This document shows positions 28,504 through 46,040 of a DNA stretch of 64,000 nt, one piece after another (the first letter of the stretch is position 1; each line of letters starts with the position of its first letter). The position numbers and the translations under genes were made by a program. The DNA comes from Bifidobacterium sp. ESL0800. Its GTDB lineage: Bacteria > Actinomycetota > Actinomycetes > Actinomycetales > Bifidobacteriaceae. The notes below the pieces were generated by a model. That model saw only the letters and a program-made list of their open reading frames with translations, ran no database searches and was not told the origin of the DNA. The stretch is taken from positions 1,674,001-1,738,000 of the forward strand of contig NZ_CP113913.1 in the NCBI RefSeq assembly GCF_029395355.1, given 5' to 3'.

Positions 28504-28519
28504 GCACTATATCTAGTGG
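28504..28519. promoter_or_regulatory. NrdR box of the nrdHIE operon
   Basis: GCACTATATCTAGTGG fits the NrdR consensus (ACAC-W-ATATAT-W-GTGT) with few changes. A degenerate second copy may lie at about 28531-28548. NrdR represses ribonucleotide reductase when ATP/dATP is bound. Confidence 0.65.
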
Positions 28520-28621: not shown

Positions 28622-28897
28622 ATGACCGTTACCGTTTTCACCAAACCACGCTGCCCGCAGTGCGAGGCGACCAAGCGCCAGCTCAAGCGCCAGGGCATTG
28701 CGTTCGAGACCGTCGACCTGACCGAAAACCCCTCCACCCTTGAGCAGATCACCCAGGCCGGCTTCCGTCAGGCACCCGTCGTCATCACGCCCGACGCCTC
28801 CTGGAGCGGCTACCGCCCAGACCTCATCAAGCAGCTCGCAGCTGGCGCAGTCAAGATCTCCGCCGACGCTAAGACCCAACAGACCGTTCTCGCCTAG
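28622..28897 (+). CDS. nrdH: NrdH, glutaredoxin-like electron donor
   Basis: A 91-residue redoxin that reduces the class Ib ribonucleotide reductase, itself reduced by thioredoxin reductase. The N-terminus TVTVFTKPRCPQCEATKRQL has the active-site CPQC (Cys 11 and 14; most NrdH have CVQC or CMQC). WSGYRPDLIKQL is the conserved C-terminal motif. GGAGG precedes the ATG. First gene of nrdHIE. Confidence 0.95.
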   Translation: MTVTVFTKPRCPQCEATKRQLKRQGIAFETVDLTENPSTLEQITQAGFRQAPVVITPDASWSGYRPDLIKQLAAGAVKISADAKTQQTVLA

Positions 28898-28955: not shown

Positions 28956-29543
28956 ATGGCGGACGCGAGTATCGATGACGCCACCACACACGCAGAACCC
29001 GTCACAGGAACCGCGAACGCAGCAACCGAGCCGTACGACGACGAATGCGTCACGCCCAGCGAGCCGGAAGCCAAGGCCAAAGGCGAGCATATCGGCGCCG
29101 TGGTCTATTTCTCGTCGGTTTCGAACAACACCGCGCGCTTCATTGAAAGCTGCGGTTTCCCCGACGAGGGCATCAACGTCTATCGCATTCCGCTGCGTCC
29201 AAAAGAGGCACCGCTGCAGGTACGCGAACCGTACGTCCTGATCGTGCCGACCTACGGCGGCGGCAACATCGCCAAGGCCCTGCTTCCGCAGATTCGCAAG
29301 TTCCTGAACGGGCACAAGAACCGCAGTTTCATCCGCGGGGTCATTTCCTCGGGCAACAGAAACTTCGCCACGGCCTTCTGCGCCGCCGGCGACATCATCT
29401 CCAAGAAATGCCACGTGCCGTTCATGTATAATTTCGAGCTTTTGGGCACCCCGGACGACCAGCGTCAGGTGCGCGAGGGCATCCGCGACTTCTTCCTCGA
29501 CGCGAAGAACAGGCAGAGCGGGCAAGGCCAGCAGCAGCAATAA
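28956..29543 (+). CDS. nrdI: NrdI, flavodoxin-like activator of class Ib RNR
   Basis: A 195-residue protein that supplies superoxide for assembly of the Mn-tyrosyl cofactor of NrdF. The NrdI fold starts about residue 47: AVVYFSSVSNNTARFIES, then VLIVPTYGGGNIAKALLP and GVISSGNRNFATAFCAAGD. A poorly conserved 45-residue N-terminal extension precedes it. The ATG at 28956 has AGAGAGAAGG upstream, and in-frame starts further up lack this. Its need for a partner NrdF makes the absence of nrdF right after nrdE notable. Confidence 0.93.
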   Translation: MADASIDDATTHAEPVTGTANAATEPYDDECVTPSEPEAKAKGEHIGAVVYFSSVSNNTARFIESCGFPDEGINVYRIPLRPKEAPLQVREPYVLIVPTYGGGNIAKALLPQIRKFLNGHKNRSFIRGVISSGNRNFATAFCAAGDIISKKCHVPFMYNFELLGTPDDQRQVREGIRDFFLDAKNRQSGQGQQQQ

Positions 29544-31886: not shown

Positions 31887-31940
31887 GCCGCGTTCGCACT
31901 GATACATAGTCAGCGCGAATCTCAATGCAAGAAAACACAG

Positions 31941-31980
31941 AAACCCGTCGAGATCACAGAGGTCTCGGCGGGTTTCGTTT
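31941..31980 (+). terminator. Rho-independent terminator of nrdHIE
   Basis: AAACCCGTCGAGA (31941-31953) pairs with TCTCGGCGGGTTT (31963-31975, one mismatch) and is followed by CGTTT. It lies 55 bp after the nrdE stop. Confidence 0.8.
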
Positions 31981-32051
31981 ACCTTATAATCCTACAAATT
32001 TTCCTGGCTTCGGGCTTCATGCCTCGCCGGCAATAACCACGGCAAATCCCC

Positions 32052-33122
32052 TCACTTGCTCGCGTTCGGGTTCGGTCTGGTCGAGGCGCGGCGCACCAGC
32101 TTCGGATCCACCAACGTGGTCATATGAACGTGGGTCTCCGGATTTTCCAATTCGTCGATAAGATGCGTCATGGCCTGCTCGCCCATATCGTTGGCCGGGG
32201 CATTGACAACAGTCAAAGGCATTCTGGAACGCATCGGCAAGCGTATGCCTTCGCAACCGACGATACTGATGTCATCCGGAACTTGAATCCCACGTTCAGT
32301 GAAATTTTCAATAAGCCCGGCAGCCAACGCGTCACCGCCGGTCACAATCCCATCCGGCCGTTCGTCGGCAGGCATGTCGCTGATCTGCGAACCCAACTGA
32401 TACCCATCTTCAAAAAGCAGTCCACCCGCATCAAACGTGGAAAACTGAACAGCCGACTTCGCCGCTTCAACCGCCCGCTGCACGCCGAGCTGACGATTCT
32501 GTATGGACTCATAGTCAAAAAGATGCGCCGCGAAGAGAATCTTTTTGCAGCCCGTCTCAATCAGCTCCTGAGCGGCCAATTGCCCTACCGACACGTTGTT
32601 TTCCATCACCGAGCAAACGGCGCACGCCCCCGTAGGCGAACTGTGGTCAAGCAGCACTATGGGCTTATGCGCGTGCCGAACCTTGGCGATATCCTCAACG
32701 GGGTCGGTGACTGTGCTCAACAGAATGCCGCTGACGTCAAGCCTGATGAAGGTCTCGATCAGATCACTTTGCCTGTCTTTGTCCGAGAAAGCGTTGGCTC
32801 CGAGGACCTGCATATTCCGGTCTTCGCACACTTCCTGAATACCTTCGAAAATATGGGTGAACAGCGAGTGCTCGATATCCGTCATCACAAAGCCGACCAA
32901 CGATGAAGCGACACCGGAACGCTCGGCCTGTCCGCTTCCTTGCATATGCAATCTGGGAGGCTTGCGGGGCTCGTAACCCAGCTCCGCGATCACCGCGGAA
33001 ACCCGCTTGCTCAACGCCGGCGACACCCGATCCGGATAATTCAAATAATTCGATACCGTGCCGATGGACACGTCGGCGATACGCGCGATATCCGAAATAC
33101 TGACTCTTTTCGTAGTGACCAC
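32052..33122 (-). CDS. LacI-family regulator of the rhamnosidase operon
   Basis: A 356-residue repressor. HTH near residues 8-30 (ISDIARIADVSIGTVSNYLN), then the hinge and a periplasmic-binding-like domain with FVMTDIEHSLFTHIFEGIQE. It is divergent from the alpha-rhamnosidase (33400), and two palindromes of the same type lie in the 277-bp spacer between them. It probably represses the rhamnosidase-symporter-glucosidase genes until a plant glycoside or rhamnose derivative is present. The effector is inferred. Confidence 0.92.
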   Translation of the reverse strand: MVTTKRVSISDIARIADVSIGTVSNYLNYPDRVSPALSKRVSAVIAELGYEPRKPPRLHMQGSGQAERSGVASSLVGFVMTDIEHSLFTHIFEGIQEVCEDRNMQVLGANAFSDKDRQSDLIETFIRLDVSGILLSTVTDPVEDIAKVRHAHKPIVLLDHSSPTGACAVCSVMENNVSVGQLAAQELIETGCKKILFAAHLFDYESIQNRQLGVQRAVEAAKSAVQFSTFDAGGLLFEDGYQLGSQISDMPADERPDGIVTGGDALAAGLIENFTERGIQVPDDISIVGCEGIRLPMRSRMPLTVVNAPANDMGEQAMTHLIDELENPETHVHMTTLVDPKLVRRASTRPNPNASK

Positions 33123-33195
33123 CAGGATTCCCTCTACCGTTGAACGAATGATATCTGTATCTTATTACCGTCGCCGTATCGACGTTGTCTACTTT

Positions 33196-33209
33196 TTTGA
33201 AATTTCAAA
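33196..33209. promoter_or_regulatory. Operator 1 in the LacI/rhamnosidase spacer
   Basis: TTTGAAATTTCAAA, perfect 14-bp palindrome, about 28 bp from a second site of the same half-sequence. Candidate site for the divergent LacI protein. Confidence 0.7.
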
Positions 33210-33223
33210 TATAGGGACGATTG

Positions 33224-33238
33224 TTTGAAAATTTCAAA
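33224..33238. promoter_or_regulatory. Operator 2 in the LacI/rhamnosidase spacer
   Basis: TTTGAAAATTTCAAA: arms TTTGAAA and TTTCAAA around one A. Together with operator 1 it gives two sites nearly three helical turns apart, good for cooperative binding. Confidence 0.7.
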
Positions 33239-33399
33239 AACTAGTCTTACTATTTAAGTATTCGGTTCATTTCCGTCTATTGACAGCGCCGAAATAAACG
33301 GAAATCTGCCTCTGTCGTAGGGACAGCGACCATCGCCACGTCGCTTCAGCGGAGACACACGAAGGCTTTACGACCGTTGAACCCAAGGAAGGATCATCA

Positions 33400-36111
33400 A
33401 TGGACAATCACAACGCAACATCATCAACAGACGGGACGACCCTGACGCTCGACCCCACGGCCGCAGCCGTTGGGTACGACGTCCTCGACCTCACCATCGA
33501 GCACTTTCCCGGCGACGTGATGGGCATCGGCATTCCCGCGCCGAGAATGAGCTGGGTTTACGACCACAAACCGCCACAGGGCGCGCAGATTCTTCTGAAG
33601 ATTCGCCGCCGCGTGCCGGGGGGCAAACCCGTCGACGAAAGCACGTACCTGCCGGCGAAGCAAAGCGTCTTGGTGCCTTGGCAATTCAACCAGCTGGTGT
33701 CGCGGGAGCGGGTGAGCGCCACCGTTCAGGTCGTCTCCTCGCAGCATGCACCGCTGGGTAAGCCGAGCGACGAGCTGCACTTCGAGATCGGCCTCCTACG
33801 CGAATCCGAGCATGTCGCCGATTACGTCGGACCTTCCTGGCCCGAAGCCGAAACCGACCACCGCCATCTGCCGCTGGTGCGCACCGATGTCACCCTGCGC
33901 GAAAAGCCCACGAGCGCCCGCCTCTATCTGTCGGCCTTGGGACTCGTCGAAGCGGAAATCAACGGCCGCAAGGTCAGCGAGGACGCGCTGACCCCGGGCT
34001 GGACGCAGTACGAAAAGCGCATTCCCTGCTGGACCTACGACGTGACCGACAAGCTCAACGCCGGCGGCAACGCCATGGGCTTCTGGCTGGGCGACGGATG
34101 GTATCGCGGGCGCATCGGCTTCGACGGCGGCTATGCCAATTATTACGGGGACCGTATCGGGGTCCTGGCGCAGCTTGAAGTCGAATACGCCGACGGCACC
34201 ACCGAAAAGATCTGCTCCAATTCGTGGGACAGGCAGTGGAAAGCCACGCTCGGCCCCATCGTCAGCTCCGACATGTACGAAGGCGAATGCTATGACGCCC
34301 GTCTCGAGCAGCCCGGATGGTCGACCTACGGTTTCGACGACAGCGCCTGGAAGCCGGTCGCCGAATCGTTCTGCGACCCAGCGAAGATCGAGAATCCCGA
34401 GATCCTCTCGATTCGTCCGCAGGAAAAGCACGAGCCGGTGTCCGTCAAGAAGATCGGCGAGCGCAGTTGGCTGGTCGACTTTGGCCAGAACTGTTCCGCA
34501 CGTATCCGCCTGCACTTGCATGACCTCGCGTCCGGCGACACCGTCACATTGCACCATGTCGAGGTGCTGGAACCCGACGGCTCCATCGCCACCCGCACCC
34601 TGCGCCGCGGCCAGCAGCTGGACTCCTACACTTCCAACGGCCAGAACGCCTGGTGGGAACCCCGCTTCGTGATGCACGGCTTCCGCTACGTCCAGATCGA
34701 CGGCTGGCCCGGCGAGCTGAGCGCGGACGATATGGATTGCCGCGTCTATCACTCCGAGCTCAAACGCACCGGCGAGCTGGAGACTTCCAACGAGATGCTC
34801 AACAAGCTGCACCACAATATCGTCTGGTCGATGCGCTCGAACTTCATGAGCATCCCCACCGACTGCCCGCAGCGCGACGAGCGGCTCGGCTGGACCGGCG
34901 ACATCTGCCTCTTCTCCCCCACCGCGACGTATTTGTATGATGTTCAGGCGTTCCTGAACAACTGGCTGCACGACCTAAGAACCGAACAGGTCAAGTGGGG
35001 CACCGTCCCCTACTACGTGCCGTTCGTGCCGCTGGGAGGTTGGTCGCATCCGACGGCCATTTCCGAATGGGGAGATGCGGCGGTCGCGGTGCCGTGGGCG
35101 CTTTACCGGGACAGCGGCGACGCCGAGATCCTGCGCGAGAACTACGACCTGAGCCATGACTGGGTCGACGAGGTCGCAGGCTATCTTTCCCCCGACGGCG
35201 TCTGGGACCGCAGGCCCGAATTCGTCCTGGGACAGCTTGGCGATTGGCTCGACCCGAGCGCCCCGCCGGACCGCCCGTCCCTGGCCATGACGCAGAAGGA
35301 GCTGGTGGCCACCGCCTACTTCGCCCGCAGCTGCAGCCAGGTCACCCGGATGGCGCAGATCCTAGGCAAGGACGACGACGCCAAACGCTTCGGCGAGCTC
35401 TACCGACACGTGCGCCGCGGGTTCATCGACCGGTTCAGCAACATGGACGGCACCATGACCAGCGACACGCAATGCGCCTATGCGCTCTCCATCGCCTTCG
35501 GCCTGCTGGACGACGATGACGTGCGGCGGGTGAAGGCCGGCAACAGGCTGGCCGAGCTCGTGCGCGATTCGGGCGGCAAGGTGAGCACCGGTTTCGCCGG
35601 CACCCCGTTCGTCCTTCCTGCGCTGAGCATGACCGGACACGACGAGGAGGCCTTCTCCCTGCTGGAATCCACCGAGTGCCCGAGCTGGCTCTATCAGGTG
35701 AAGATCGGAGCCACCACGACGTGGGAACGCTGGGATTCGATGGAACCCGACGGCACGCTCAACCCGGGAGGCATGACCTCGTTCAACCATTACGCGCTGG
35801 GCTCGGTGGCCACATGGATGCATTCGCATATCGGCGGCCTCGAAGCCATCGACGCCGGCTGGAAGCGTTTCCGCATCGCCCCGCATATGGGTGGCGGCAT
35901 CACCCACGCCTCCACCTCGCATATCACGCCGTTCGGCCGTGCCGCGGTTTCCTGGAAACTGGTCGACGCGCAAGGCGAGGAAAACGCTGCGGGAACCACG
36001 CTGGAAATGGACGTCACGGTTCCTGTCGGAGCCACCGGCACGGTGGAACTGGCCAACCATGAGCCTTGCGAGCTGAAGGCCGGCCACCATCGGCTGACCA
36101 TCAATCTGTAA
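33400..36111 (+). CDS. Alpha-L-rhamnosidase, GH78
   Basis: A 903-residue glycoside hydrolase that removes terminal L-rhamnose from plant glycosides such as rutinosides or naringin. Typical order: N-terminal beta-domains, then RKVSEDALTPGWTQYEKRIP and LGDGWYRGRIGF, the catalytic (alpha/alpha)6 part with SIPTDCPQRDERLGWTGD (general acid region) and GATTTWERWDSMEPDG (general base region), and a C-terminal beta-sandwich. No signal peptide, so it acts inside the cell on imported glycosides. AAGGAAGG precedes the ATG. First gene of a unit with a symporter and a GH1 glucosidase. Confidence 0.93.
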   Translation: MDNHNATSSTDGTTLTLDPTAAAVGYDVLDLTIEHFPGDVMGIGIPAPRMSWVYDHKPPQGAQILLKIRRRVPGGKPVDESTYLPAKQSVLVPWQFNQLVSRERVSATVQVVSSQHAPLGKPSDELHFEIGLLRESEHVADYVGPSWPEAETDHRHLPLVRTDVTLREKPTSARLYLSALGLVEAEINGRKVSEDALTPGWTQYEKRIPCWTYDVTDKLNAGGNAMGFWLGDGWYRGRIGFDGGYANYYGDRIGVLAQLEVEYADGTTEKICSNSWDRQWKATLGPIVSSDMYEGECYDARLEQPGWSTYGFDDSAWKPVAESFCDPAKIENPEILSIRPQEKHEPVSVKKIGERSWLVDFGQNCSARIRLHLHDLASGDTVTLHHVEVLEPDGSIATRTLRRGQQLDSYTSNGQNAWWEPRFVMHGFRYVQIDGWPGELSADDMDCRVYHSELKRTGELETSNEMLNKLHHNIVWSMRSNFMSIPTDCPQRDERLGWTGDICLFSPTATYLYDVQAFLNNWLHDLRTEQVKWGTVPYYVPFVPLGGWSHPTAISEWGDAAVAVPWALYRDSGDAEILRENYDLSHDWVDEVAGYLSPDGVWDRRPEFVLGQLGDWLDPSAPPDRPSLAMTQKELVATAYFARSCSQVTRMAQILGKDDDAKRFGELYRHVRRGFIDRFSNMDGTMTSDTQCAYALSIAFGLLDDDDVRRVKAGNRLAELVRDSGGKVSTGFAGTPFVLPALSMTGHDEEAFSLLESTECPSWLYQVKIGATTTWERWDSMEPDGTLNPGGMTSFNHYALGSVATWMHSHIGGLEAIDAGWKRFRIAPHMGGGITHASTSHITPFGRAAVSWKLVDAQGEENAAGTTLEMDVTVPVGATGTVELANHEPCELKAGHHRLTINL

Positions 36112-36278
36112 ATCAATCCCGTGCAGGCGTCGAGACCGTATCGTTTCAACGCCTGCACACGCTACAGGTCACGTCTGACGCAATCGAAGCGCAGACAGGA
36201 CCCCGACCAAATTGTCAAGGTCTCACGAAAGCAACATATCTGGGCCTTACAGCGGTACAACAAAGAAAAGGAAGAACC

Positions 36279-37625
36279 ATGGAACTCAATGACGAGCCTC
36301 GTCCGGATACGGATGAAGGCCAGATTACGACAGACGGCGCTGCAACCGCAACCGTTGCCGTAAAGAATCTCAGCAATCTCGCACCCGACACCGGCAAGCC
36401 TTTGGACATGAAAGCCAAGATTCGATTCGGCATCGGCTTCGTCCTGTTCGGCCTGCTGTGGATGACAGCAGGAACCGCCGGCTCCGCCGTGCTCCTTCCC
36501 CAGCGATTCAGCGAACTGAATATCGGCGTGCCCGAGGTGATTCTCGGCACCATGAATTCGGTGGGCTGCGTGTTCGCACTGGTCTCCAATATCGTTTTCG
36601 GCGCATTCAGCGACGTGACGCGTTCACGATTCGGCAAACGTACACCGTGGGTCATCGTCGGTGGGTTCATCGCCGGCGGCGGATATGCGATTACCGCCAC
36701 CAGCACAACCCTGTTCGGCATCGTCGCCGGCTGGTCCATCGTCCAGATCGGCGTCAACTGCATGATCGCCCCGGCAATCGCCGTGCTCTCCGACCGCATT
36801 CCCGAAAACGTGCGAGGCACCTTCTCGGCATTCTACGGCGGCGCGGATCTCGTCGGCTCATCGCTCGGTACCTTCGTCGGAGCCAAATTCATCTCCAACA
36901 TGGGCACCGGCTTCACGCTCGGCGTCGCGTTGTTCATCTTCGCCGGCGTGGCCGCAGTCCTCGCCTGGCCGCGTGAACTTTCCTCAAAGAGCACCGGAAA
37001 CGCGGAAAAGCTGCACTTCTCCGAAATCGCCAAAGCCTTCATCCCGCCCACCAAGAACTGCCGCGACTTCTATCTGGCCCTCTGCGGCAGGCTCATGTTC
37101 ATTCTCGGTTGGCAGATGATCGGCGGCTACCAGCTCTATATCCTGCAGAAGTACTGCCATATGAGCAAAACCGTTTCCGCAAGCGTGCTTTCGCAGATGG
37201 CGGCGCTGGCCATGGTGGTCCAGATCATCATGTCGCTGGTCTCCGGCCCGCTTTCCGACAAGCTGCACAGGCGTAAGATCCTGGTGTTCATCGGCTCCGC
37301 AATCATCGCCGTCGGCCTTGCCATCCCGTGGTTCTTCCCGACCAAGGAAGGCATGCTGGCCTACGCGCTCGTCGGCAACTTCGGATACGGCATGTACAAG
37401 GCCGTCGATCAGGCGCTGAACGTCGACGTCCTGCCCAGCGGCGATGAGGCTGGCAAGGATCTGGGCATCCTCAACCTCGCCAATACCTTGGGCCAGGTCA
37501 TCGCGCCTGTTATCGTCAGCGCCATCATCGTGGCGACCAACAGCTACGCAATCCTCTTCCCGATTGCGATCGCCGGTGTGATGATCGGAGCAATCATCAT
37601 CATGTTCATCAAGAAAGTGAAGTAG
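36279..37625 (+). CDS. MFS/GPH-type sugar symporter
   Basis: A 448-residue, 12-helix transporter of the glycoside-pentoside-hexuronide or related MFS type. Clear marks: IVFGAFSDVTRSRFGKRTPW (the cytosolic loop signature), then IVGGFIAGGGYAITATSTTL, and GPLSDKLHRRKILVFIGS between the halves. AAAGAAAAGGAAG precedes the ATG; an in-frame extension to 36066 is not credible. It lies between the rhamnosidase and the beta-glucosidase and probably imports rhamnose-containing glycosides or disaccharides such as rutinose. It is a paralogue of the transporter at 49678-50961. Confidence 0.9.
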   Translation: MELNDEPRPDTDEGQITTDGAATATVAVKNLSNLAPDTGKPLDMKAKIRFGIGFVLFGLLWMTAGTAGSAVLLPQRFSELNIGVPEVILGTMNSVGCVFALVSNIVFGAFSDVTRSRFGKRTPWVIVGGFIAGGGYAITATSTTLFGIVAGWSIVQIGVNCMIAPAIAVLSDRIPENVRGTFSAFYGGADLVGSSLGTFVGAKFISNMGTGFTLGVALFIFAGVAAVLAWPRELSSKSTGNAEKLHFSEIAKAFIPPTKNCRDFYLALCGRLMFILGWQMIGGYQLYILQKYCHMSKTVSASVLSQMAALAMVVQIIMSLVSGPLSDKLHRRKILVFIGSAIIAVGLAIPWFFPTKEGMLAYALVGNFGYGMYKAVDQALNVDVLPSGDEAGKDLGILNLANTLGQVIAPVIVSAIIVATNSYAILFPIAIAGVMIGAIIIMFIKKVK

Positions 37626-37662
37626 CCATCAGGCGATTCATCATCAGATGACACGATACAAC

Positions 37663-37700
37663 GAACGTCGGCCCCAGGAAGTGTGGTGGGACCGACGTTC
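37663..37700. terminator. Stem-loop after the symporter gene
   Basis: GAACGTCGG (37663-37671) pairs with CCGACGTTC (37692-37700), with CCC/GGG continuing inside. No U-tract; it may limit read-through into the GH1 gene. Confidence 0.6.
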
Positions 37701-37779
37701 ACTATATTCATTCCGCTTCCCAAACGAATTCCGGTCTCGGTGATATCGGAACAAAACCGGACAGCGGCACAGTAGCTGT

Positions 37780-37833
37780 ACAACAGCAGCACAACAGCAG
37801 CACAACAGCGCATCAGTACACAGCAGTACACAG
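37780..37833. repeat. Short tandem repeats before the GH1 gene
   Basis: ACAACAGCAGC twice plus a partial third copy (37780-37812), then CAGTACACAG twice (37814-37833), immediately before the AAGGAG of the GH1 gene. Confidence 0.75.
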
Positions 37834-37847
37834 CAGCAAGGAGCATC

Positions 37848-39236
37848 ATGGCTTTCACATTCCCGAACAACTTTACCTGGGGCGTCGCAACGGCGTCCTA
37901 CCAAGTCGAAGGAGCTTCAGAGGAAGACGGGCGCGTGCCCTCCATCTGGGACACGTTCTGCCAGCGACCAGGCACCATCGCCGACGGCTCTTCGGGGCGC
38001 AACGCCTGCGATGAATACCACCGATACCCCGAGGACATCGATCTGATGAAGCGACTCGGGGTCACAGCCTACCGTCTTTCAATCGCCTGGCCACGTATCG
38101 TCACCGAAGACGGAACGGTCAACCTTGCCGGCATCGACCATTACCGTCGTCTCCTCGAAACCTTGCGCAAGGCCGACATCAAGCCCGTGGTGACGCTTTA
38201 TCACTGGGATCTTCCGCAATACCTGCAGGACAAGGGAGGCTGGGCGAGGCGCGATACCGCGTTGCGCTTCGCCGATTATGTCGGCTGTCTGGCCGATGCG
38301 TTCGGCACGCAAGTCGATACGTGGACGACGCTGAACGAGCCGTGGTGCTCCGCATACCTCGGCTACGGCAGCGGTGTGCACGCCCCGGGAATCCAAGATT
38401 ACGAACAGGCTTTGAAAGCCGTTCATCACCTCAATCTTGCCCATGGGCTGGCCGCCAAAACCATACACGAGCAATTGGGGGACGATACGCGGGTGTCGGT
38501 GACACTCAATCTTTCCGTCGATATCGCACAAAGCCAAGCACCGGAGGATATCGCCGCGAAAAAACGGATGGACCTCATCGCCAACGAGGTGTTCCTCGAA
38601 CCGATGCTGGAGGGACGCTACAATCCGGAAATCGCCGAAGCGACCAAAGACATCACCGATTGGGGCTTCGTCGAGGACGGCGATCTGGAAACGATCCATC
38701 AGCCGATTGCGGCCTTGGGACTGAACTATTATTCGACCAAGCACGTCAGGCGCCGCCAAAATCCCGAAACCGAAACCGCAAGGAACGCCATGCCCGCACA
38801 GGAGGACGTCGAGGTCCTGCCCCCCGAAGGCGAATTGACCGCGATGGGCTGGAATCAGGAGCCGGCGGCGCTCAAGCGAACGCTTATCGATTTGGGAAAG
38901 CGGTTCCCCGACATCGAGCTGATGATTACCGAAAACGGTTCCGCCTGGGACGATGCGGTTACGGCCGACCCCTCGGCCCCACACGGCAAGATCGTGCACG
39001 ACCCGCAGCGCGTGGCTTATATGCGGGCGCATCTGAAGGCCGTCGCCGAAGCCATCGACGCCGGCGCCAGCGTCACCGGATATTTCACATGGTCGCTGCT
39101 CGACAACTTTGAATGGGCGCTGGGTTATACCAAGCGTTTCGGCATCATCCGTGTCGATTACGACACCCAGGAACGTATCTGGAAGGATTCGGCGCTGGAA
39201 TACCGGCGCATCATCAAAGCCAACGCCATAGAGTAG
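37848..39236 (+). CDS. Beta-glucosidase, GH1
   Basis: A 462-residue cytosolic retaining beta-glycosidase. GH1 marks: FTWGVATASYQVEGASEEDG at the start, the acid/base Glu in TWTTLNEPW, the nucleophile Glu in LMITENGSAW, and the end FEWALGYTKRFGIIRVDY. AAGGAG precedes the ATG. After rhamnose is removed by the GH78 enzyme, this enzyme could release glucose from the flavonoid glucoside; that joint role is inferred from position. Confidence 0.94.
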   Translation: MAFTFPNNFTWGVATASYQVEGASEEDGRVPSIWDTFCQRPGTIADGSSGRNACDEYHRYPEDIDLMKRLGVTAYRLSIAWPRIVTEDGTVNLAGIDHYRRLLETLRKADIKPVVTLYHWDLPQYLQDKGGWARRDTALRFADYVGCLADAFGTQVDTWTTLNEPWCSAYLGYGSGVHAPGIQDYEQALKAVHHLNLAHGLAAKTIHEQLGDDTRVSVTLNLSVDIAQSQAPEDIAAKKRMDLIANEVFLEPMLEGRYNPEIAEATKDITDWGFVEDGDLETIHQPIAALGLNYYSTKHVRRRQNPETETARNAMPAQEDVEVLPPEGELTAMGWNQEPAALKRTLIDLGKRFPDIELMITENGSAWDDAVTADPSAPHGKIVHDPQRVAYMRAHLKAVAEAIDAGASVTGYFTWSLLDNFEWALGYTKRFGIIRVDYDTQERIWKDSALEYRRIIKANAIE

Positions 39237-39442
39237 GCACGCCGATCCCCATCCACGCGGATCGAACCGATAAACCGGGTCGCGCCAAATCACCACACAA
39301 TGTCTGTTGGTGCGGCCCAATTTGGTTTATCTCAATTCGGTACATCCCGATTCGGTATGGCTGGATTCGGCTTGGCTGAGCCTTAATCGAGCCCCAATCC
39401 AGGCGCAACCACATCAACCTGCAAAGCAAGTCGGATGCCTCT

Positions 39443-40225
39443 CTAGCCCTTCTTGCCCGCCCAACCAAGCTCGGCGGAAATCGAGGCGGCGGCATCGGCC
39501 ACCAACGGGCCGACCTCGCGCATGCGTTCGAAGGGCATGAAGGTCTTGAAACTCGAGACGGAAATCGCACATACGATTGTGCCGGATTCGTCGCGCACCG
39601 GCGCGGCCACGCAGCGCACGCCCGGCTCGTTTTCCTCGAGATCGTAGGCCACCCCGCGTTTGGCATAGCGTGCCATCGCGTTGGCGAAGGCCTTCGCCCC
39701 GGAATAATTGTGCTCCGGCTGGCGTTCCATGCGCTTGCGATCGTCGATATACTGCTTCTCCCAACGGTCTCTCTGGTCGAGCAGAAGCGCTTTGCCGATG
39801 CCCGTGTAGGTCAGCGGCATCCGGCAGCCCGGCCACGAACGAATCTCGACGGAACGTGTGCCGTTGACCTTGTCGAGATACAGCGTCTCGCCATCGTCCT
39901 CGACGGCGAGGTGGATGGTGTCGCGGGTGGCGTCGGAAAGGTCGAGCAAATACGGACGGGCGACGGCGCTGATCGACGTGTCCTCGCGCGCCTGGAAGCC
40001 GAGCTCGATCAGGGCGGGGCCGAGCGCCAGGCTGCCGTCGACGTTGTCGCGCAGCATGCGCTCTCCACGCAGCGCCTGAATCAAGCGATGCGTGGTGCTC
40101 CGGCTCAGCCCGGTGGCCTCGGTCAGCTCACGCAGTGTGCGCGACCCCGCGGCGACGGCTTTGAGCACCGCGATGCCGTTGATCAGCGTCTGGGCACCAC
40201 GCACGTTCGTGGTTCCTTCGTTCAT
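39443..40225 (-). CDS. IclR-family regulator of rhamnose catabolism
   Basis: A 260-residue regulator: winged helix (ETLINGIAVLKAVA-like start, then TLRELTEATGLSRSTTHRLI) and an IclR effector domain with DTIHLAVEDDGETLYLDKV and VAAPVRDESGTIVCAISVS. The ATG at 40225 is taken as start; a GTG at 40234 is also possible, and no strong ribosome-binding site helps. It is on the same strand as the aldolase and dehydratase genes (rhmA 26 bp upstream), so it probably belongs to their transcript and controls the divergent site at 42432-42446. Confidence 0.9.
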   Translation of the reverse strand: MNEGTTNVRGAQTLINGIAVLKAVAAGSRTLRELTEATGLSRSTTHRLIQALRGERMLRDNVDGSLALGPALIELGFQAREDTSISAVARPYLLDLSDATRDTIHLAVEDDGETLYLDKVNGTRSVEIRSWPGCRMPLTYTGIGKALLLDQRDRWEKQYIDDRKRMERQPEHNYSGAKAFANAMARYAKRGVAYDLEENEPGVRCVAAPVRDESGTIVCAISVSSFKTFMPFERMREVGPLVADAAASISAELGWAGKKG

Positions 40226-40258
40226 AGAGTCCACGATAGTCGCCCGTCCGTAGTTGCA

Positions 40259-41032
40259 TTACTTGTATTGCGCGAGCGCGGCGTCAAGACCGTGCACATA
40301 GACGTCGGTATCGCCGGCAACCGCCACGAAATCGGCACCCCACGCGAAATACTGCTTGGCGGTGGGCGCGTCGAAGGCGAGCGAGCCGACGGCCTTGCCA
40401 TGTGCCTTGATGACGTCAAAGGCGTGATGGACCTCGTCGCTGATGGCGGCGGCGTCGTCGGGATGGCCGAGCGAAGCCGAAAGGTCGGCGGGTCCGATGA
40501 AGACGCCGTCGATGCCCTCAACGCTGGCGATCTCTTCGATATTGCCGAGCGCCTCGCGCGATTCGACCTGTACGATCAGGCAGATCTCGCTGGCCGCGTC
40601 ACGCATGTAGTTCGGGATCATGCCCCAACGCCCGGAACGTGCGATGGAACCGCCGACGCCGCGGATGCCCTTGGGCGCGTAGTTGACGGCCTTGACCATC
40701 AGCTCGGCCTGCTCACGGTTGTTGACCATCGGGATCAACAGCGACTGAGCACCGATGTCGAGCACCTGCTTGATGCGCACCGGGTCGGCCGCCGCCGGAC
40801 GCACAATCGCCGGGGTATCGTAACCCTGGCAGGCGCGAAGCTGTGCCTCGATCGTCGTCAGGTCGTTCGGGCCATGCTCGCCGTCGATGAGTATCCAGTC
40901 GTAACCGATGCCCGCGGCGATCTCCGCCGACGTGGGGGATCCCATCGCGACCCACAGACCTTTGAGCTGCTTGGGGCCGGGCTGACGGATCGCCGCCTTG
41001 AACGGATTATGTTTCAATTGCTGTGTAGCCAT
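40259..41032 (-). CDS. rhmA: 2-keto-3-deoxy-L-rhamnonate aldolase (HpcH/HpaI family)
   Basis: A 257-residue class II, metal-dependent aldolase. Family marks: GLWVAMGSPTSAEIAAGIGY, DWILIDGEHGPND, CLIVQVESREAL (metal Glu), GIDGVFIGPADLSASLGHP (metal Asp), and the last Trp/Arg-free stretch FVAVAGDTDVYVHGL. It cleaves 2-keto-3-deoxy-L-rhamnonate to pyruvate and L-lactaldehyde; the substrate call comes from the adjacent rhamnonate dehydratase. AAGGAAC precedes the ATG at 41032; a longer in-frame start at 41113 is less likely. Confidence 0.88.
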   Translation of the reverse strand: MATQQLKHNPFKAAIRQPGPKQLKGLWVAMGSPTSAEIAAGIGYDWILIDGEHGPNDLTTIEAQLRACQGYDTPAIVRPAAADPVRIKQVLDIGAQSLLIPMVNNREQAELMVKAVNYAPKGIRGVGGSIARSGRWGMIPNYMRDAASEICLIVQVESREALGNIEEIASVEGIDGVFIGPADLSASLGHPDDAAAISDEVHHAFDVIKAHGKAVGSLAFDAPTAKQYFAWGADFVAVAGDTDVYVHGLDAALAQYK

Positions 41033-41059
41033 GATGTTCCTTCTCTCCATTCGCACAAA

Positions 41060-41116
41060 CCCATGGCCGCCGAAAGAAACCACGGCGATACGCGCGATAT
41101 CTTTGGCAGCCATGGG
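41060..41116. other. Stem-loop between the dehydratase and aldolase genes
   Basis: CCCATGGC (41060-41067) pairs with GCCATGGG (41109-41116). It lies in the 98-bp spacer between rhmD and rhmA and uses the same CCATGGG core as the hairpin at 706-761. Confidence 0.5.
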
Positions 41117-41130
41117 CTGGCACGATTCGA

Positions 41131-42357
41131 TTAATGCTTGAACGGACGCTCGAGCGGGCAGTCGCGGTTGAGTTCGACACCGAAACCGGGCTTGTCCAAT
41201 TCCTCGGCGGTGATGATGCCATCATGAGGCACCGGCTCGCCGATCAAAATCGGGTCGAACTGCGGACGGATATGGTCGGCCTTCGGAGCCGTCATCAGCA
41301 TCTCGCTGAACGGGGTGTTGGTGAAAGTGATCACGGCGTGGTGCGAATAGACGGACGAGCCGTGAGGCACGACCAGCTGGCCGTGGGCCTTGGCGACCGC
41401 CGCGATTTCGCACAGCGACGTGACGCCGCCGCACCAACCGACATCGGGCTGCAGGATGTCGACACCCGCGTCGGAGAGCTCCTTGAAGCCTTCGAGCGTG
41501 CCGGTGTGCTCGCCGGTGGTCATCAGCATGCCCGCCGGCATCACGCGCTTCAACTCGCGGTAGGAATCGATCTGGCTGGCGGGGAAGCATTCCTCCATCC
41601 ACTTGAGCTTGTACGGCGCGGCCGCGTGGGCGAACTTGGTGGCGTAATTGACGTCCATGCTCATCCAGCAGTCATACATCAGCCAGAAATTGTCGCCGAC
41701 CTTCTCGCGCATATCGGCGAGCGTCGCAATGTCTTTTTCAATACCCTCGTCACCGAACGCCGAGCTCCAGTGGGTCGGCATCTTGCCGCCGATGAAGCCC
41801 ATTTTCTGGGCCAAATCGGGCCGTGCACCCGTGGCATAGAAGTGGATCTCGTCGCGTACCGCGCCGCCGAGCAGCTTGTAGACCGGCATCTTCAGGACCT
41901 TGCCGTAGAGGTCCCACAGCGCCAGATCGACGCAGGAGACGGTGTTGATCACCACGCCGCCGCCACCGGAATAGAAGAGCGTGGCGTTGAGCATCTGGTC
42001 GTGGATCAGCTTGATCTGGTCGACGCGCTTGCCTTCCACGAAGCGCGAAAGGTGATGCTCGACGATGAAGCAGCCGATGGCCCCGGCCGTGGAAATCGCG
42101 AAGCCCGTGGTGCCGTCGCTGGCCTCGACCTCGACCACCAGCGTGCCCAATACGTTGAGGCCAAAGCTCTGCCGGGACTGCTCGTATTCGGGGTATTTGC
42201 TCATCGGCGTGGCGATGTGGTCGTCGATCCAATGGCCGGGCCCTTGGTCGTGATAGTCTCCGCCGCCCTGCCCGTGGACCTTGGCCGCAGCCCCACCCAT
42301 GGAATAGGCGCGGATCGCGGTAATCGTGGGCATCTTCAATGATGGTGCCAATGTCAT
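41131..42357 (-). CDS. rhmD: L-rhamnonate dehydratase (enolase superfamily)
   Basis: A 408-residue enzyme close in length to E. coli RhmD (about 400 residues). It dehydrates L-rhamnonate to 2-keto-3-deoxy-L-rhamnonate using Mg2+. Visible: [20 protein letters not shown] near the N-terminus, [19 protein letters not shown], metal ligands in [24 protein letters not shown] and LMTTGEHTG, and catalytic His in [24 protein letters not shown] precedes the ATG. Divergent from the SDR gene, with an IclR-like site between. Confidence 0.93.
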
Positions 42358-42431
42358 AGCGATTCCTCTCCGTTAAAGAAAAAACAGTGCCGATATCCAG
42401 ATTATCGCGCGCATATATTTGTCCCTATATA

Positions 42432-42446
42432 TGAAACATCGTTCCA
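42432..42446. promoter_or_regulatory. IclR/KdgR-like operator in the divergent rhamnose spacer
   Basis: TGAAACATCGTTCCA is an imperfect palindrome resembling KdgR-type (IclR family) sites and sits in the 193-bp spacer between rhmD and the SDR gene. AT-rich flanks (ATATAT, AAATAT) support a promoter role. Candidate site for the IclR at 39443-40225. Confidence 0.55.
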
Positions 42447-42550
42447 AATATGGTGAAATAGGATATATACAGGATTTTTGCGCACCTCGATTGCGCTCGG
42501 CAGCCGTCGCCCGCGAAAGTCCGGCATCGTCAAGCAACGAAGGAGTGTTC

Positions 42551-43348
42551 ATGACCAGCAATTCTTACGATTTCAATGGCAAAGTCGTCATCGTCACCGG
42601 CGGCGGCACCGGCATCGGCAAGGCCGTCACGCAAGGGTTCCTCGACAACGGCGCCACCGTAGTGGCCGTGGGCCTGCGCAAAGATCCGCTCGAAGACACC
42701 GTAAAAGGCTACAAAAACGGACATATCCACATCACCGACGTTTCCGACCACGCGCAGGTCAAGGAACTCGTGCAATCCGTCGTCGACGAATTCGGCCACC
42801 TCGACGTGGTCGTCTCCAACGCGGGCATCTTCGAGGGCGGCGAGGTGGAGCACGTCTCCGACGAAGTCTGGCACAAGCTCTTCTCCGTCAACCTCGACGG
42901 CCTCTTCTACCTGACCAAGGAAGCCTTGCCGCACCTGATCAAATCGCACGGCAACATCGTGGTCGACACCTCCGTTTCCGGCCTGTACGGCGACTGGGGG
43001 CAGACCGCCTACAACTCCACCAAGCACGCCATGAACGGCTTCGTGCGCTGCGTGGCCCTCGACTACGGAGCCAAAGGCGTGCGCATCAACGCTTTCGCGC
43101 CCGGCTTCATCGAAACCGACATCAACAAAGAAGTGTGGAGCGACCCCGAGCGCGTGGCGCCCTACACGCAGCGCGTGGCGCTTGGGCGCACCGGACGGCC
43201 CGAGGATTGCGCCGGAATCGCGCTGTTCCTCGCCTCCGACGACGCCGCATACCTGACCGGCCTGGTCGTGCCCGTCGACGGCGGCACCACCGCGGCGACC
43301 GGGCAGGGCCGCAACTCCTACGAGAACGACACCCGTTCCGTATTGTGA
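42551..43348 (+). CDS. SDR oxidoreductase, probable L-rhamnose 1-dehydrogenase
   Basis: A 265-residue short-chain dehydrogenase. Rossmann motif VTGGGTGIGKAV (about residues 16-27), VSNAGIFEGG, catalytic Ser in DTSVSGLYGDW and Tyr/Lys in TAYNSTKHAMNGF, then the PGFIETDINKEVW segment. It would oxidise L-rhamnose to the lactone with NAD(P)+; the substrate is inferred from neighbours. L-fucose is the main alternative. AAGGAG lies before the ATG. Divergent from rhmD, followed by a perfect hairpin and the lactonase gene. Confidence 0.85.
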   Translation: MTSNSYDFNGKVVIVTGGGTGIGKAVTQGFLDNGATVVAVGLRKDPLEDTVKGYKNGHIHITDVSDHAQVKELVQSVVDEFGHLDVVVSNAGIFEGGEVEHVSDEVWHKLFSVNLDGLFYLTKEALPHLIKSHGNIVVDTSVSGLYGDWGQTAYNSTKHAMNGFVRCVALDYGAKGVRINAFAPGFIETDINKEVWSDPERVAPYTQRVALGRTGRPEDCAGIALFLASDDAAYLTGLVVPVDGGTTAATGQGRNSYENDTRSVL

Positions 43349-43358
43349 GATACTCGGC

Positions 43359-43406
43359 TGTCAGCTTGTCCTGATTCCGGCAAAGTCCAATCAGGACAAG
43401 CTGACA
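43359..43406 (+). terminator. Perfect 18-bp hairpin after the SDR gene
   Basis: TGTCAGCTTGTCCTGATT (43359-43376) pairs perfectly with 43389-43406 around a 12-nt loop. It starts 11 bp after the stop codon. No U-tract, so partial termination or 3'-end protection is likely. Confidence 0.7.
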
Positions 43407-43533
43407 CCCACTTGGTCACCAGAGAAACGGCAGCCACGTTCCCAACGATATCGGCACGTTGGCCGTATTCGGCAAACAGCAATACGATGGCCCTTATTAT
43501 TTAATACAATTTTCATGTCAAGGGTGACGTCAA

Positions 43534-44550
43534 ATGAACACTTCATATGAACGCGACAACTCAAAAAATCCGGAGCCAGCGGGTGAACCTGCGGTTTTCA
43601 GCGAAACCGTGACGGACCGTCTGACGACGATCATTCCGGAGACGCGAGCGCAGGCCACCAAGCCCCGGCCCTTTATCGACACACACGTCCACTTGATGAA
43701 AGCCTCGCTCTACTCGTGGTTCAATCCCTCGAAACCCGCGACATTCGAGGGGCCGTGGGACCCGCTGTTTACCATGGGCGACTTCACTGCCGACAAGCTG
43801 GCCCAGGAAGCCGAAGGCACGCCGATAGAGCTGAAAGGCGCGGTCCACATCCAGGCGAACGCCGACGACTCCATCGCCGAGATCGAGGCGGTGGAGGCCA
43901 TGGCCGCACGCTCGGCCTGGCCAATCAGAATCATCGGCGGCGGCGACCTGAGCGACCCCGATATCGAAAGCCTTTTGGAGCGCGAAGCCACGTTCGCCGA
44001 CGTACGCGGCGTGCGGCAAAACCTCAACATCCATCCGCATCCGCTCTATGCCTATGTCGACAAATCCTATATGGACGACCCGCAATGGCTCAAGGGACTC
44101 GCGCTGCTCAAAAAATACGGCATGAGTTTCGACATGCAGCTTTACCCCACCCAATTCGCGCGCGCCTGCGAGGTCATCGACGCCAATCCAGAGACACTGT
44201 TCATCATCGACCACGCCGGTATGTGGGCCGACCGGGACCTTGCCGGATGGCAGCTGTGGAGCAAAGGGCTGCGAAATCTGGCACAGCGCGATAATTGCGC
44301 CATAAAGATCTCGGCGCTGGCCTCGCTCGACCACCGCTGGACCTTGGAAAGCATCAAACCCATCGTCTATACGATTCTCGACGCTTTCGGCACCGATCAC
44401 GTCATGTTCGGCTCGAATTTCCCCGTCGACAAGCTGCACGGCACCTACGGTGACATCGTGCACGGCTTCGCACGCTGCGTCGAAACGCTTTCCGAACCCG
44501 AACAAGACGCGCTGTTCGTTGACAATGCGAAGCGTTGGTATCGTTTCTGA
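43534..44550 (+). CDS. Amidohydrolase-2 family protein, probable L-rhamnono-gamma-lactonase
   Basis: A 338-residue metal hydrolase. The N-terminal metal motif is FIDTHVHLMKASLYSWF; later marks are FIIDHAGMWADRD and VMFGSNFPVDKLHGTYGD, typical of the family that includes sugar-acid lactonases. It would open L-rhamnono-gamma-lactone to L-rhamnonate, linking the SDR and RhmD steps. The first ~45 residues are an unconserved polar leader. AAGGGTGACG precedes the ATG. The substrate is inferred from the pathway. Confidence 0.85.
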   Translation: MNTSYERDNSKNPEPAGEPAVFSETVTDRLTTIIPETRAQATKPRPFIDTHVHLMKASLYSWFNPSKPATFEGPWDPLFTMGDFTADKLAQEAEGTPIELKGAVHIQANADDSIAEIEAVEAMAARSAWPIRIIGGGDLSDPDIESLLEREATFADVRGVRQNLNIHPHPLYAYVDKSYMDDPQWLKGLALLKKYGMSFDMQLYPTQFARACEVIDANPETLFIIDHAGMWADRDLAGWQLWSKGLRNLAQRDNCAIKISALASLDHRWTLESIKPIVYTILDAFGTDHVMFGSNFPVDKLHGTYGDIVHGFARCVETLSEPEQDALFVDNAKRWYRF

Positions 44551-44560
44551 AACATTCTGA

Positions 44561-44692
44561 AACAGTTTCGCAAGTCCGTAGAAGGATTTTGAGGCATTTC
44601 CAGAACAATTCCGAAAGAGACTTTCATAAATGATCGGAACAGTTTCGGGAGTACTTGACGCATTTCCGAAAAGGATTTTCGAAAAGGATTTC
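44561..44692. repeat. Degenerate repeats upstream of the NrdF-like gene
   Basis: AACAGTTTCG occurs at 44561-44570 and 44638-44647, GCATTTCC at 44594-44601 and 44660-44667, and AAGGATTT(T/C) three times (44582, 44671, 44684). They suggest an old tandem duplication in the spacer 44551-44804. A GTTTC/GAAAC inverted repeat lies at the left end. Confidence 0.55.
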
Positions 44693-44804
44693 TGCACTAT
44701 TCTACGGACATCATCTCTTGCATCTTTCGCTCAGCGAATACGGGAGCGGGCCTCGGTAATCTAGAAGGCAGAACCCCTTTTGTTGATCTATGTAAGGAAC
44801 ATCC

Positions 44805-46040
44805 ATGCCCTTCACCGCTATGAACTGGAATCTCGCCGGCGCCAACGCCGACGCGGACCGCGACGCCTTCAACGCCATGACCGCGAACCTGTGGACGCCG
44901 GAACAGGTTTCGCTGGCTGACGACACCAAGGATATTCGCGGGCTGGGCGATGCTCAGCGGGTTGCGCTGAGCCGCATTTTCGCGGGCCTTGCCGCAGTCG
45001 AATCGCTACAGGCCAGCGGCGCGACGAGCGTTCTGAGCACCGACGCCGGCAAAGGCAGCGACCACACCGGTATCGGGCAGGCCGTTTTGACCGCCATCGC
45101 ATTCGGCGAATCCATCCATACGAAAGCTTATTCGGCGCTGATCGCGGCGCTCGGCAATAACGACGGCAATAGCAGCGACAACAACGACACGCAATCCCCA
45201 TTTGCCTGGACCGAGCAGAATGAATCGATGCAGGCAAAGCTGCAACTGCTCAATGATGTATATGCAACTGATTTGAATATTCCAAACGTCACTGTTTCCG
45301 GCGCAGCGGAGCAATCAAACCAAAACGCGGGCACTCCCGCCAATTCGCTGGGCATCTCGTCACCGGACGAGATTGCGACACCAAACTCTTCGGCTTCAGA
45401 TTCTTCAAGTGTTAACAACGACAATTCCGGCGCTGGGAGTACCCCCGACCTCGGCGCGCTCAAACGGCTCGCGGCGGCCGTGTTGGCAGAGGCTCTGCTG
45501 GTGGAATCCAGCTTCTACCTGCCGATGTGGCTTTCCAGCCGAGGGGCAATGACGAAATCCGCCGATATCATCCGCCTGATCAACCGCGATATCGTCACTT
45601 CCAGCTCGTACCTCGGCTCCGTTTACCAGCGTAAGCTCGAGCAACTCGACGACAGCACCCGCGAGAATATGCGCCAATACGTTTACGACCTGGCCAACAA
45701 CCTCTATTTCGCCGAAGAGGACTACAGCTACACCTTGCCATACGCCGACCTCGGCCTCGACGACGACATCGAGAAGTTCCTGAGCTACAACGCCAACAAG
45801 GCACTCTCCTACTTGGGATATCCCGCCCTGTTCCCCGCCGAGATCAGCCAGCCGAACCCGGCCGTCACCGACGAGCTCAACGATATGGAATCCGTGATGT
45901 CTGCGCTCAAATCCGGCAGTCTGTTCGCCGGCACCGGCATCAACTCCACGGGCACCGCCGCCACTTCGCCTTCGTCTTCGACCGGCGCCACCGCGGCCAA
46001 CACCGCCGAAGAAACGAACGACGACGACTGGGACTTCTGA
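44805..46040 (+). CDS. nrdF: Highly divergent NrdF-like protein lacking two metal ligands
   Basis: A 411-residue class Ib R2-like protein. It aligns with Salmonella NrdF over its whole length: AMNWNLAG at the start, FGESIHTKAYS (Glu102, His105, radical Tyr109), VLAEALLVESSFYLPMW (Glu229), SSRGAMTKSADIIRLINRD, FLSYNANKALSYLGYPALFP, and the R1-docking tail DDDWDF. But the motif RDEAVHGYY of normal NrdF reads RDIVTSSSY here, so the ligands matching Glu192 and His195 are Ile263 and Ser266; the ligand matching Asp67 is Glu66. About 100 residues of Asn/Ser-rich insertion sit at 117-216. AAGGAAC precedes the ATG. The frame is intact. It may be an inactive or alternative-cofactor R2, not a plain nrdF. 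Confidence 0.82.
   Translation: MPFTAMNWNLAGANADADRDAFNAMTANLWTPEQVSLADDTKDIRGLGDAQRVALSRIFAGLAAVESLQASGATSVLSTDAGKGSDHTGIGQAVLTAIAFGESIHTKAYSALIAALGNNDGNSSDNNDTQSPFAWTEQNESMQAKLQLLNDVYATDLNIPNVTVSGAAEQSNQNAGTPANSLGISSPDEIATPNSSASDSSSVNNDNSGAGSTPDLGALKRLAAAVLAEALLVESSFYLPMWLSSRGAMTKSADIIRLINRDIVTSSSYLGSVYQRKLEQLDDSTRENMRQYVYDLANNLYFAEEDYSYTLPYADLGLDDDIEKFLSYNANKALSYLGYPALFPAEISQPNPAVTDELNDMESVMSALKSGSLFAGTGINSTGTAATSPSSSTGATAANTAEETNDDDWDF

Follow-up and report, generated by a model that had tools for sequence, protein, structure and literature searches.

Yeast and apicomplexans are known to possess R2 proteins without catalytic function, and the locus described here raises the question of whether an inactive R2 can govern an active RNR. 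It lies in a stretch of 64,000 nucleotides from Bifidobacterium sp. ESL0800, which was analysed as a whole and is referred to below as the window, and it consists of an nrdF-like gene with an ATG start codon and the sequence AAGGAA 5 nt upstream:

44805 to 46040, plus strand: degenerate nrdF (putative pseudo-R2), 411 aa, recognised from the open reading frame, Pfam, alignments and orthologues in 11 other genomes of the same genus and in G131

The product matches the Pfam family Ribonuc_red_sm (7.9e-50); 11 NCBIfam models match it as well, all scoring below their own cut-offs. A single-chain AlphaFold2 model was built from an input alignment of 32 sequences and had a mean pLDDT of 72.9, with 187 of the 411 residues at pLDDT >=90 and the low parts in the linkers and termini. 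This model matched Salmonella NrdF (2r2f) with a Z of 38.3 (2.0 A, 284 residues) and the Gardnerella class Ie R2 (8rag) with a Z of 37.0 over 278 residues. In R2 family profile and fold, the protein thus agrees with the class Ib R2 proteins.

Because the structure-match output reports ranges only, residue pairing rests on sequence alignments, in which class Ib R2 sequences from the PDB align with the protein on either side of an insertion. Residues were compared across 97 of 99 distinct NrdF ORFs, made up of 63 class Ib sequences, 22 QSK sequences (class Ie, with Gln/Ser/Lys at three Glu positions) and 12 degenerate sequences (11 of the genus and that of G131); the G083 copy, which contains a stop, and the G103 gene, whose frame is apparently disturbed, were dropped before the residue count and the trees. 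In Salmonella NrdF numbering, the key positions of the family are D67, E98, H101, Y105, E158, E192 and H195, and alignment with the PDB class Ib R2 proteins, the 63 class Ib sequences and the 22 QSK sequences paired them with Glu66, Glu102, His105, Tyr109, Glu229, Ile263 and Ser266, respectively. The corresponding codons are found at:

45000 to 45002, plus strand: Glu66, replacing the Asp67 ligand (alignment; Glu in 12 of 12 orthologues)
45108 to 45131, plus strand: Glu102-Ser-Ile-His105 ... Tyr109, the kept ligands and the radical-Tyr position (His and Tyr in all 12 orthologues, Glu in 11)
45588 to 45602, plus strand: Asp262-Ile263-Val-Thr-Ser266, by which RDExxH is changed to RDIVTS (sequence and alignment)

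All six ligands (D/E/H/E/E/H) were present in each of the 63 class Ib sequences sampled, which are identical to one another at twelve key positions, whereas the degenerate NrdF has E66, E102, H105, E229, I263 and S266. The QSK sequences were identical at the key positions in 21 of 22 cases; the exception, presumably that of G086, whose QSK gene spans two frames, has the same ligand residues and a tail that is out of frame. Among the 12 degenerate sequences, the His101 and Tyr105 positions are unchanged, the Asp191 position is Asp and the radical-path Trp is kept throughout; the Glu98 position is Glu in 11 and Ser in G025, the Glu158 position is Glu in 8 with Gln in the other 4, the Glu192 position is Ile in 11 with Leu in the remaining one, and the His195 position is Ser in all 12. 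These alignments agree with the initial annotation, which had read Glu102, His105, Tyr109 and Glu229 as kept, Ile263 and Ser266 as substitutes for the Glu and His ligands, and Glu as a substitute for Asp. A sequencing error at 45589-45606, which would have undone that reading, is ruled out because the 12 orthologues carry the same motif, as does the broken G083 copy. The pattern had also been held to differ from that of known class Ie proteins, rightly so: these have QSK or VPK for the three Glu and keep both His, whereas the degenerate proteins have Glu (Ser), Glu (Gln) and Ile (Leu), with Ser for the second His.

The conserved C-terminal radical-transfer Tyr is absent from the degenerate proteins, a loss that the initial annotation passed over; no Tyr occurs past residue 360 in any of the 12, and the alignment column of this residue holds Phe, Ala or Ser. 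A review describes the tail Tyr (E. coli Y356 equivalent) as essential and as conserved across all class I RNRs characterised to date (PMC8463856). With two ligands and the tail Tyr lost, both radical making by the dinuclear site and hand-over of the radical to R1 look disabled. It is very improbable that the protein is a catalytic R2 with another cofactor, as had been suggested, for example a mononuclear metal held beside Tyr109 by Glu66, Glu102 and His105, the site-1 ligands of the R2 structure. These three residues occur together in 11 of the 12 sequences and Tyr109 in all of them, but two ligands and the tail Tyr are gone from every one, and the Glu102 and E158 positions vary as given above.

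The remaining parts of the protein that set it apart are two linkers and the end of the chain:

45153 to 45452, plus strand: stretch in which a variable Asn/Ser-rich insertion flanks a helical patch that is conserved (aa 132-155), delimited by low-pLDDT linkers, gaps and dN/dS
45885 to 46001, plus strand: extended Ser/Thr/Ala-rich tail linker that lacks the radical-transfer Tyr in 12 of 12
46002 to 46037, plus strand: R1-docking tail TAEETNDDDWDF, aa 400-411, recognised by its dN/dS and by a Trp and a Phe present in 12 of 12

From the radical Tyr to LKR there are 109 residues in the window protein versus 42 in class Ib NrdF, and the Asn/Ser insertion, first put at 100 residues, really amounts to 67 extra residues relative to class Ib NrdF. 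Among the 12 degenerate proteins the insertion varies from 17 to 94 extra residues, and in the orthologue alignment gaps make up 34% of aa 119-131 and 41% of aa 156-215. The DDDWDF docking tail is kept as originally described, its Trp and Phe being present in every orthologue.

The gene was sought with the PF00268 profile in 112 genomes of the genus and by protein search in 189 genomes of the family, and it was present in 12 of the 112 (its own genome included) and in G131, a member of a sister genus. Open frames were found in 11 of the 12 genus copies, making 12 intact copies with that of G131; the G083 copy has a single in-frame TGA, located in the variable linker. Outside the family, a search of 396 phylum genomes at a strict limit of 1e-38, with four candidates scored per genome among the matches listed, returned its own genome only (1 of 396). 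A scan of genome contigs added one further locus, in Bifidobacterium sp. ESL0784. Three genomes of the same QSK clade (G012, G086 and G088; 94-96% complete) do not have the gene; these absences and the in-frame TGA of G083 indicate that it is dispensable. A phage or plasmid origin was rejected, as 333 phage and 404 plasmid records match with every best place below 60% identity and the IMG/VR relatives kept (80 of 391) are at 27-42%.

Selection was measured by the Nei-Gojobori method with G000 as the reference against 11 orthologues over 342 ungapped columns. The dN/dS of the degenerate NrdF was 0.08-0.28 (dS 0.36-1.45), while that of the QSK NrdF was 0.038-0.085 for G000 against 10 genomes of the same genus and 0.28 against G131; the degenerate NrdF is under weaker constraint than the QSK NrdF. 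By region, with all pairs of the 12 compared, dN/dS was 0.18 in the N-terminal core, 0.12 in aa 132-155 and 0.135 in the C-terminal core, and it rose to 0.41 in the Asn/Ser linker (aa 156-215) and 0.57 in the tail linker (aa 368-399). The docking tail, at 12 residues, had the lowest value of all regions (0.058), and it adjoins the least constrained one. Both the overall range and the value of the tail indicate a selected protein and no pseudogene, which bears out the initial annotation on this point. That the gene is a class Ib nrdF which was replaced and is now a slowly decaying relic, without any function at present, is accordingly improbable. The lost catalytic residues, the hypervariable linkers, the stop in G083, the three clade members without the gene and the distance of about 13 kb from nrdE in the window would all suit a relic, but they stand against 12 intact frames with dN/dS well below 1 at these dS values and identical residue losses in 12 of 12. 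The contrast between the docking tail and the relaxed linker beside it speaks against a relic and suggests that R1 binding is a function that has been kept.

The other nrd genes of the window lie upstream:

28622 to 28897, plus strand: nrdH (Pfam Glutaredoxin, 6.9e-15; position ahead of nrdI)
28956 to 29543, plus strand: nrdI, the sole Pfam PF07972 match in the genome
29700 to 31886, plus strand: nrdE (R1), the sole Pfam PF02867 match in the genome

A single NrdE and a single NrdI are encoded in every one of the 12 genus genomes, 5' of the degenerate nrdF and in the same orientation, so that this gene occupies the nrdHIE neighbourhood of a class Ib R2. The distance from nrdE is 143-167 nt in G091, G089, G025 and G093; it grows to about 1.3 kb in both G087 and G092, to 2 kb in G085 and to roughly 6-17 kb in G084, G083, G090, G082 and the window (13 kb). 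In the class Ib relative G007, an intact nrdF lies directly 3' of nrdE. Positions 32000-44700 of the window, between nrdE and the degenerate nrdF, hold sugar-use genes (a LacI regulator, a GH78 rhamnosidase, a GH1 protein, an enolase-type dehydratase, an SDR and a fuconolactonase-like amidohydrolase).

A PF00268 search together with the residue comparison found no intact class Ib NrdF in the 12 genus genomes. Each of them has one QSK NrdF, and neither nrdE nor nrdI occurs in the sequence stretches around the QSK gene in any of the 12. A search for a second, canonical nrdF had been proposed as a check; the other NrdF proved to be of the class Ie QSK type, a rare metal-free one, which rules out a canonical second nrdF as partner. 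The QSK R2 of Gardnerella is reported to carry DOPA and to support ribonucleotide reduction in vitro, and in the interpretation of its authors QSK R2 proteins can use R1 proteins that also serve dimanganese R2 proteins (PMC11846895). Since a QSK NrdF is present in 12 of 12 genomes and this type is active in Gardnerella, a radical source exists in these genomes; residues needed to make or pass on the radical have been lost where a competent R2 type is present. The anaerobic NrdD was present in all 8 genomes tested.

Side by side with a QSK NrdF, the degenerate protein might serve as a partner in the manner of Rnr4, forming a heterodimer with it (or binding NrdI) and aiding maturation or stability with no competition, a possibility that we regard as unlikely, though deserving of some weight. 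Yeast Rnr4 has lost three iron ligands and forms a heterodimer with Rnr2 (PMC2704937), the apicomplexan R2_e2 lacks the tail Tyr and keeps the docking tail, with an alpha2-beta-beta' complex reported from Plasmodium (PMC3824934), and a partner of this kind is consistent with the predicted R2 fold and the constraint on the C-terminal core. However, identity between the window protein and the QSK NrdF of the same genome is 30% in the N-terminal half and 37% in the C-terminal half, and G012, G086 and G088 have no such partner, yet their QSK NrdFs match the G000 one at 97-98% identity (G086 read in two frames). These near-identical QSK NrdFs in genomes without the degenerate gene indicate that the QSK NrdF needs no partner.

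The origin of the gene was examined in a FastTree tree of 97 sequences and an IQ-TREE tree of 40 sequences. The degenerate group had full support in both and was placed in both on a long stem (branch 1.3-1.6) inside the bifidobacterial NrdFs. It joined three class Ib NrdFs of the genus in the IQ-TREE tree (support 80) and QSK in the FastTree tree (0.58), so the trees alone leave the origin undecided; long-branch attraction is possible given so long a stem, and midpoint rooting, by which the root fell on the branch of the degenerate group, was discarded. Derivation from a QSK copy is thus possible by the FastTree join, but class Ib ancestry is favoured by the place of the gene in the operon and by Glu98 and Glu158, which most of the sequences retain. 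Most simply, the degenerate gene would be the native operon nrdF, because nrdIE lies upstream on the same strand and the intact nrdF of G007 directly follows nrdE. The loss of the cofactor from this native nrdF probably followed a takeover by a class Ie R2, as suggested by the single NrdE and NrdI upstream, the absence of a class Ib NrdF from these 12 genomes and the solo QSK nrdF. The degenerate-gene tree differs from the NrdE and QSK trees, in G093 above all, and this conflict suggests transfer of the degenerate gene within the clade.

Two features near nrdHIE bear on how the genes are controlled:

28504 to 28519, plus strand: NrdR-like box upstream of nrdH, differing from the NrdR-box consensus at 2 positions
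31940 to 31976, plus strand: terminator-like hairpin 3' of nrdE (RNAfold on the 110 nt after nrdE, raw energy)

NrdR-like boxes were scored at <=2 mismatches against the consensus palindrome. The QSK nrdF has such a box within 300 nt in 11 of 12 genomes, nrdI has one within 650 nt in 8 of the 10 genomes examined, and the degenerate nrdF has one within 300 nt in 0 of 12; the background is 3 in 500 random 300-nt stretches of the window, and matches at <=3 mismatches are not above chance across the window as a whole. The exceptions are the QSK gene of G087 (4 mismatches) and the nrdHI genes of G093 (3) and G088 (5). The 110 nt past nrdE fold stably into long stems in 13 of 13 genomes (-34 to -61 kcal/mol, raw RNAfold energies), the 110-nt stretch cutting the last stem in G090. 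A sigma-70-type promoter upstream of the degenerate nrdF had no match in the window. On the absence of an NrdR-like box and the stable fold after nrdE, the degenerate nrdF looks uncoupled from the other RNR genes.

The reading that we prefer, and to which we give an about even chance, is that the protein is a non-catalytic pseudo-R2 that would dock on NrdE via its DDDWDF tail, compete with the QSK NrdF and lower or buffer aerobic RNR activity. The protein would descend from the class Ib NrdF that the native nrdHIEF operon encoded, in a lineage that gained a metal-free class Ie (QSK) NrdF working, as gene content suggests, with the single resident NrdE and NrdI. The operon NrdF, freed from radical making, would then have lost two ligands, Glu192 and His195, together with the Tyr through which the tail passes the radical to R1, with selection retaining its fold and R1-docking tail. 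Docked on NrdE in competition with the QSK NrdF, it may lower or buffer aerobic RNR activity under conditions that are not tied to control by NrdR. The initial annotation had offered a regulator or decoy for NrdE, which fits the purifying selection and the strongly constrained docking tail; the NrdE binding, the competition and the regulatory effect are what we infer from sequence. A decoy competing with the QSK NrdF would be the simplest form of an NrdE-binding modulator, and the Rnr4-like mixed dimer is its main rival. The pseudo-R2 reading is weakened by the dispensability of the gene, a constraint below that of the QSK NrdF, the lack of a promoter match and the long stem, since a branch of this length is expected of relaxed evolution too.

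Compared with known systems, the degenerate NrdF is like bifidobacterial class Ib NrdF in its fold, its operon position after nrdHIE and its docking tail, and its C-terminal half is 45% identical to that of the class Ib protein of G007 with identity of up to 52% in others; it is unlike them in that two of the six ligands are gone, as is the tail Tyr, the Asp ligand has become Glu and the insertions are long and variable. It shares with the class Ie QSK R2 of Gardnerella (8rag/8rah) an R2 fold without a full metal site; however, it has mostly Glu for the Gln and Ser of QSK and Ile or Leu for the Lys, it has lost His195, which QSK keeps, and it is without the tail Tyr. Like yeast Rnr4, it is a ligand-deficient R2 beside a radical-making R2 (PMC2704937); Rnr4 is described as a eukaryotic genome-duplication paralogue with a reported heterodimer, whereas here the other R2 is metal-free and a heterodimer would be hypothetical. 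The apicomplexan R2_e2 (PfR4) is likewise described as keeping the docking tail without the tail Tyr, on a long branch and with a standard R2 alongside (PMC3824934), but R2_e2 keeps its metal ligands and lacks the radical Tyr outside Plasmodium, and the degenerate NrdF is the reverse. The degenerate NrdF is outside the Rnr4 and R2_e2 clades, and outside class Ib and class Ie by the defining residues of those classes; it would act like Rnr4 or R2_e2 only if binding occurs.

A 2017 study of RNRs in bifidobacteria describes no signature indels for NrdF (PMC5535262), and the open-access literature matches listed include no bacterial non-catalytic R2 or NrdF. We suggest tentatively, and with rather more doubt than conviction, that this is a bacterial pseudo-R2, the first such in bacteria: a class Ib NrdF that, in its own operon position, was turned into a dedicated regulator of a shared NrdE after the class Ie takeover. 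If so, it would provide a way of controlling NrdE independently of NrdR. Stages in the replacement of class Ib by metal-free class Ie are recorded in genomes with both R2 types intact (G002, G075, G095, G131 and G148), in the 12 genomes with QSK and a disabled copy, and in genomes whose only type is QSK, among them G012, G014 and G088.

Several of the sampled genomes show further irregularities in their nrd genes. In G086, nrdE, nrdI and the QSK nrdF are each broken over several frames, which looks like poor assembly rather than biology. The sole nrdF of G103 (C15, about 266666-267544) has its disturbance near the E158 helix, and this appears to be an error or decay of the sole class Ib R2. 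A cluster in G131 (C1:1528000-1545000) consists of nrdI, the QSK nrdF, a second nrdI, nrdE and the class Ib nrdF, with both R2 types around one NrdE. The degenerate nrdF of G131 is accompanied by a 3' nrdE fragment (residues 536-728, 96% identical to the window NrdE), and the two are a probable import from this bifidobacterial clade; copies lie at C1:5000-24900 and C1:2179125-2180462, close to both contig ends, and may reflect an overlap of about 23 kb in the assembly.
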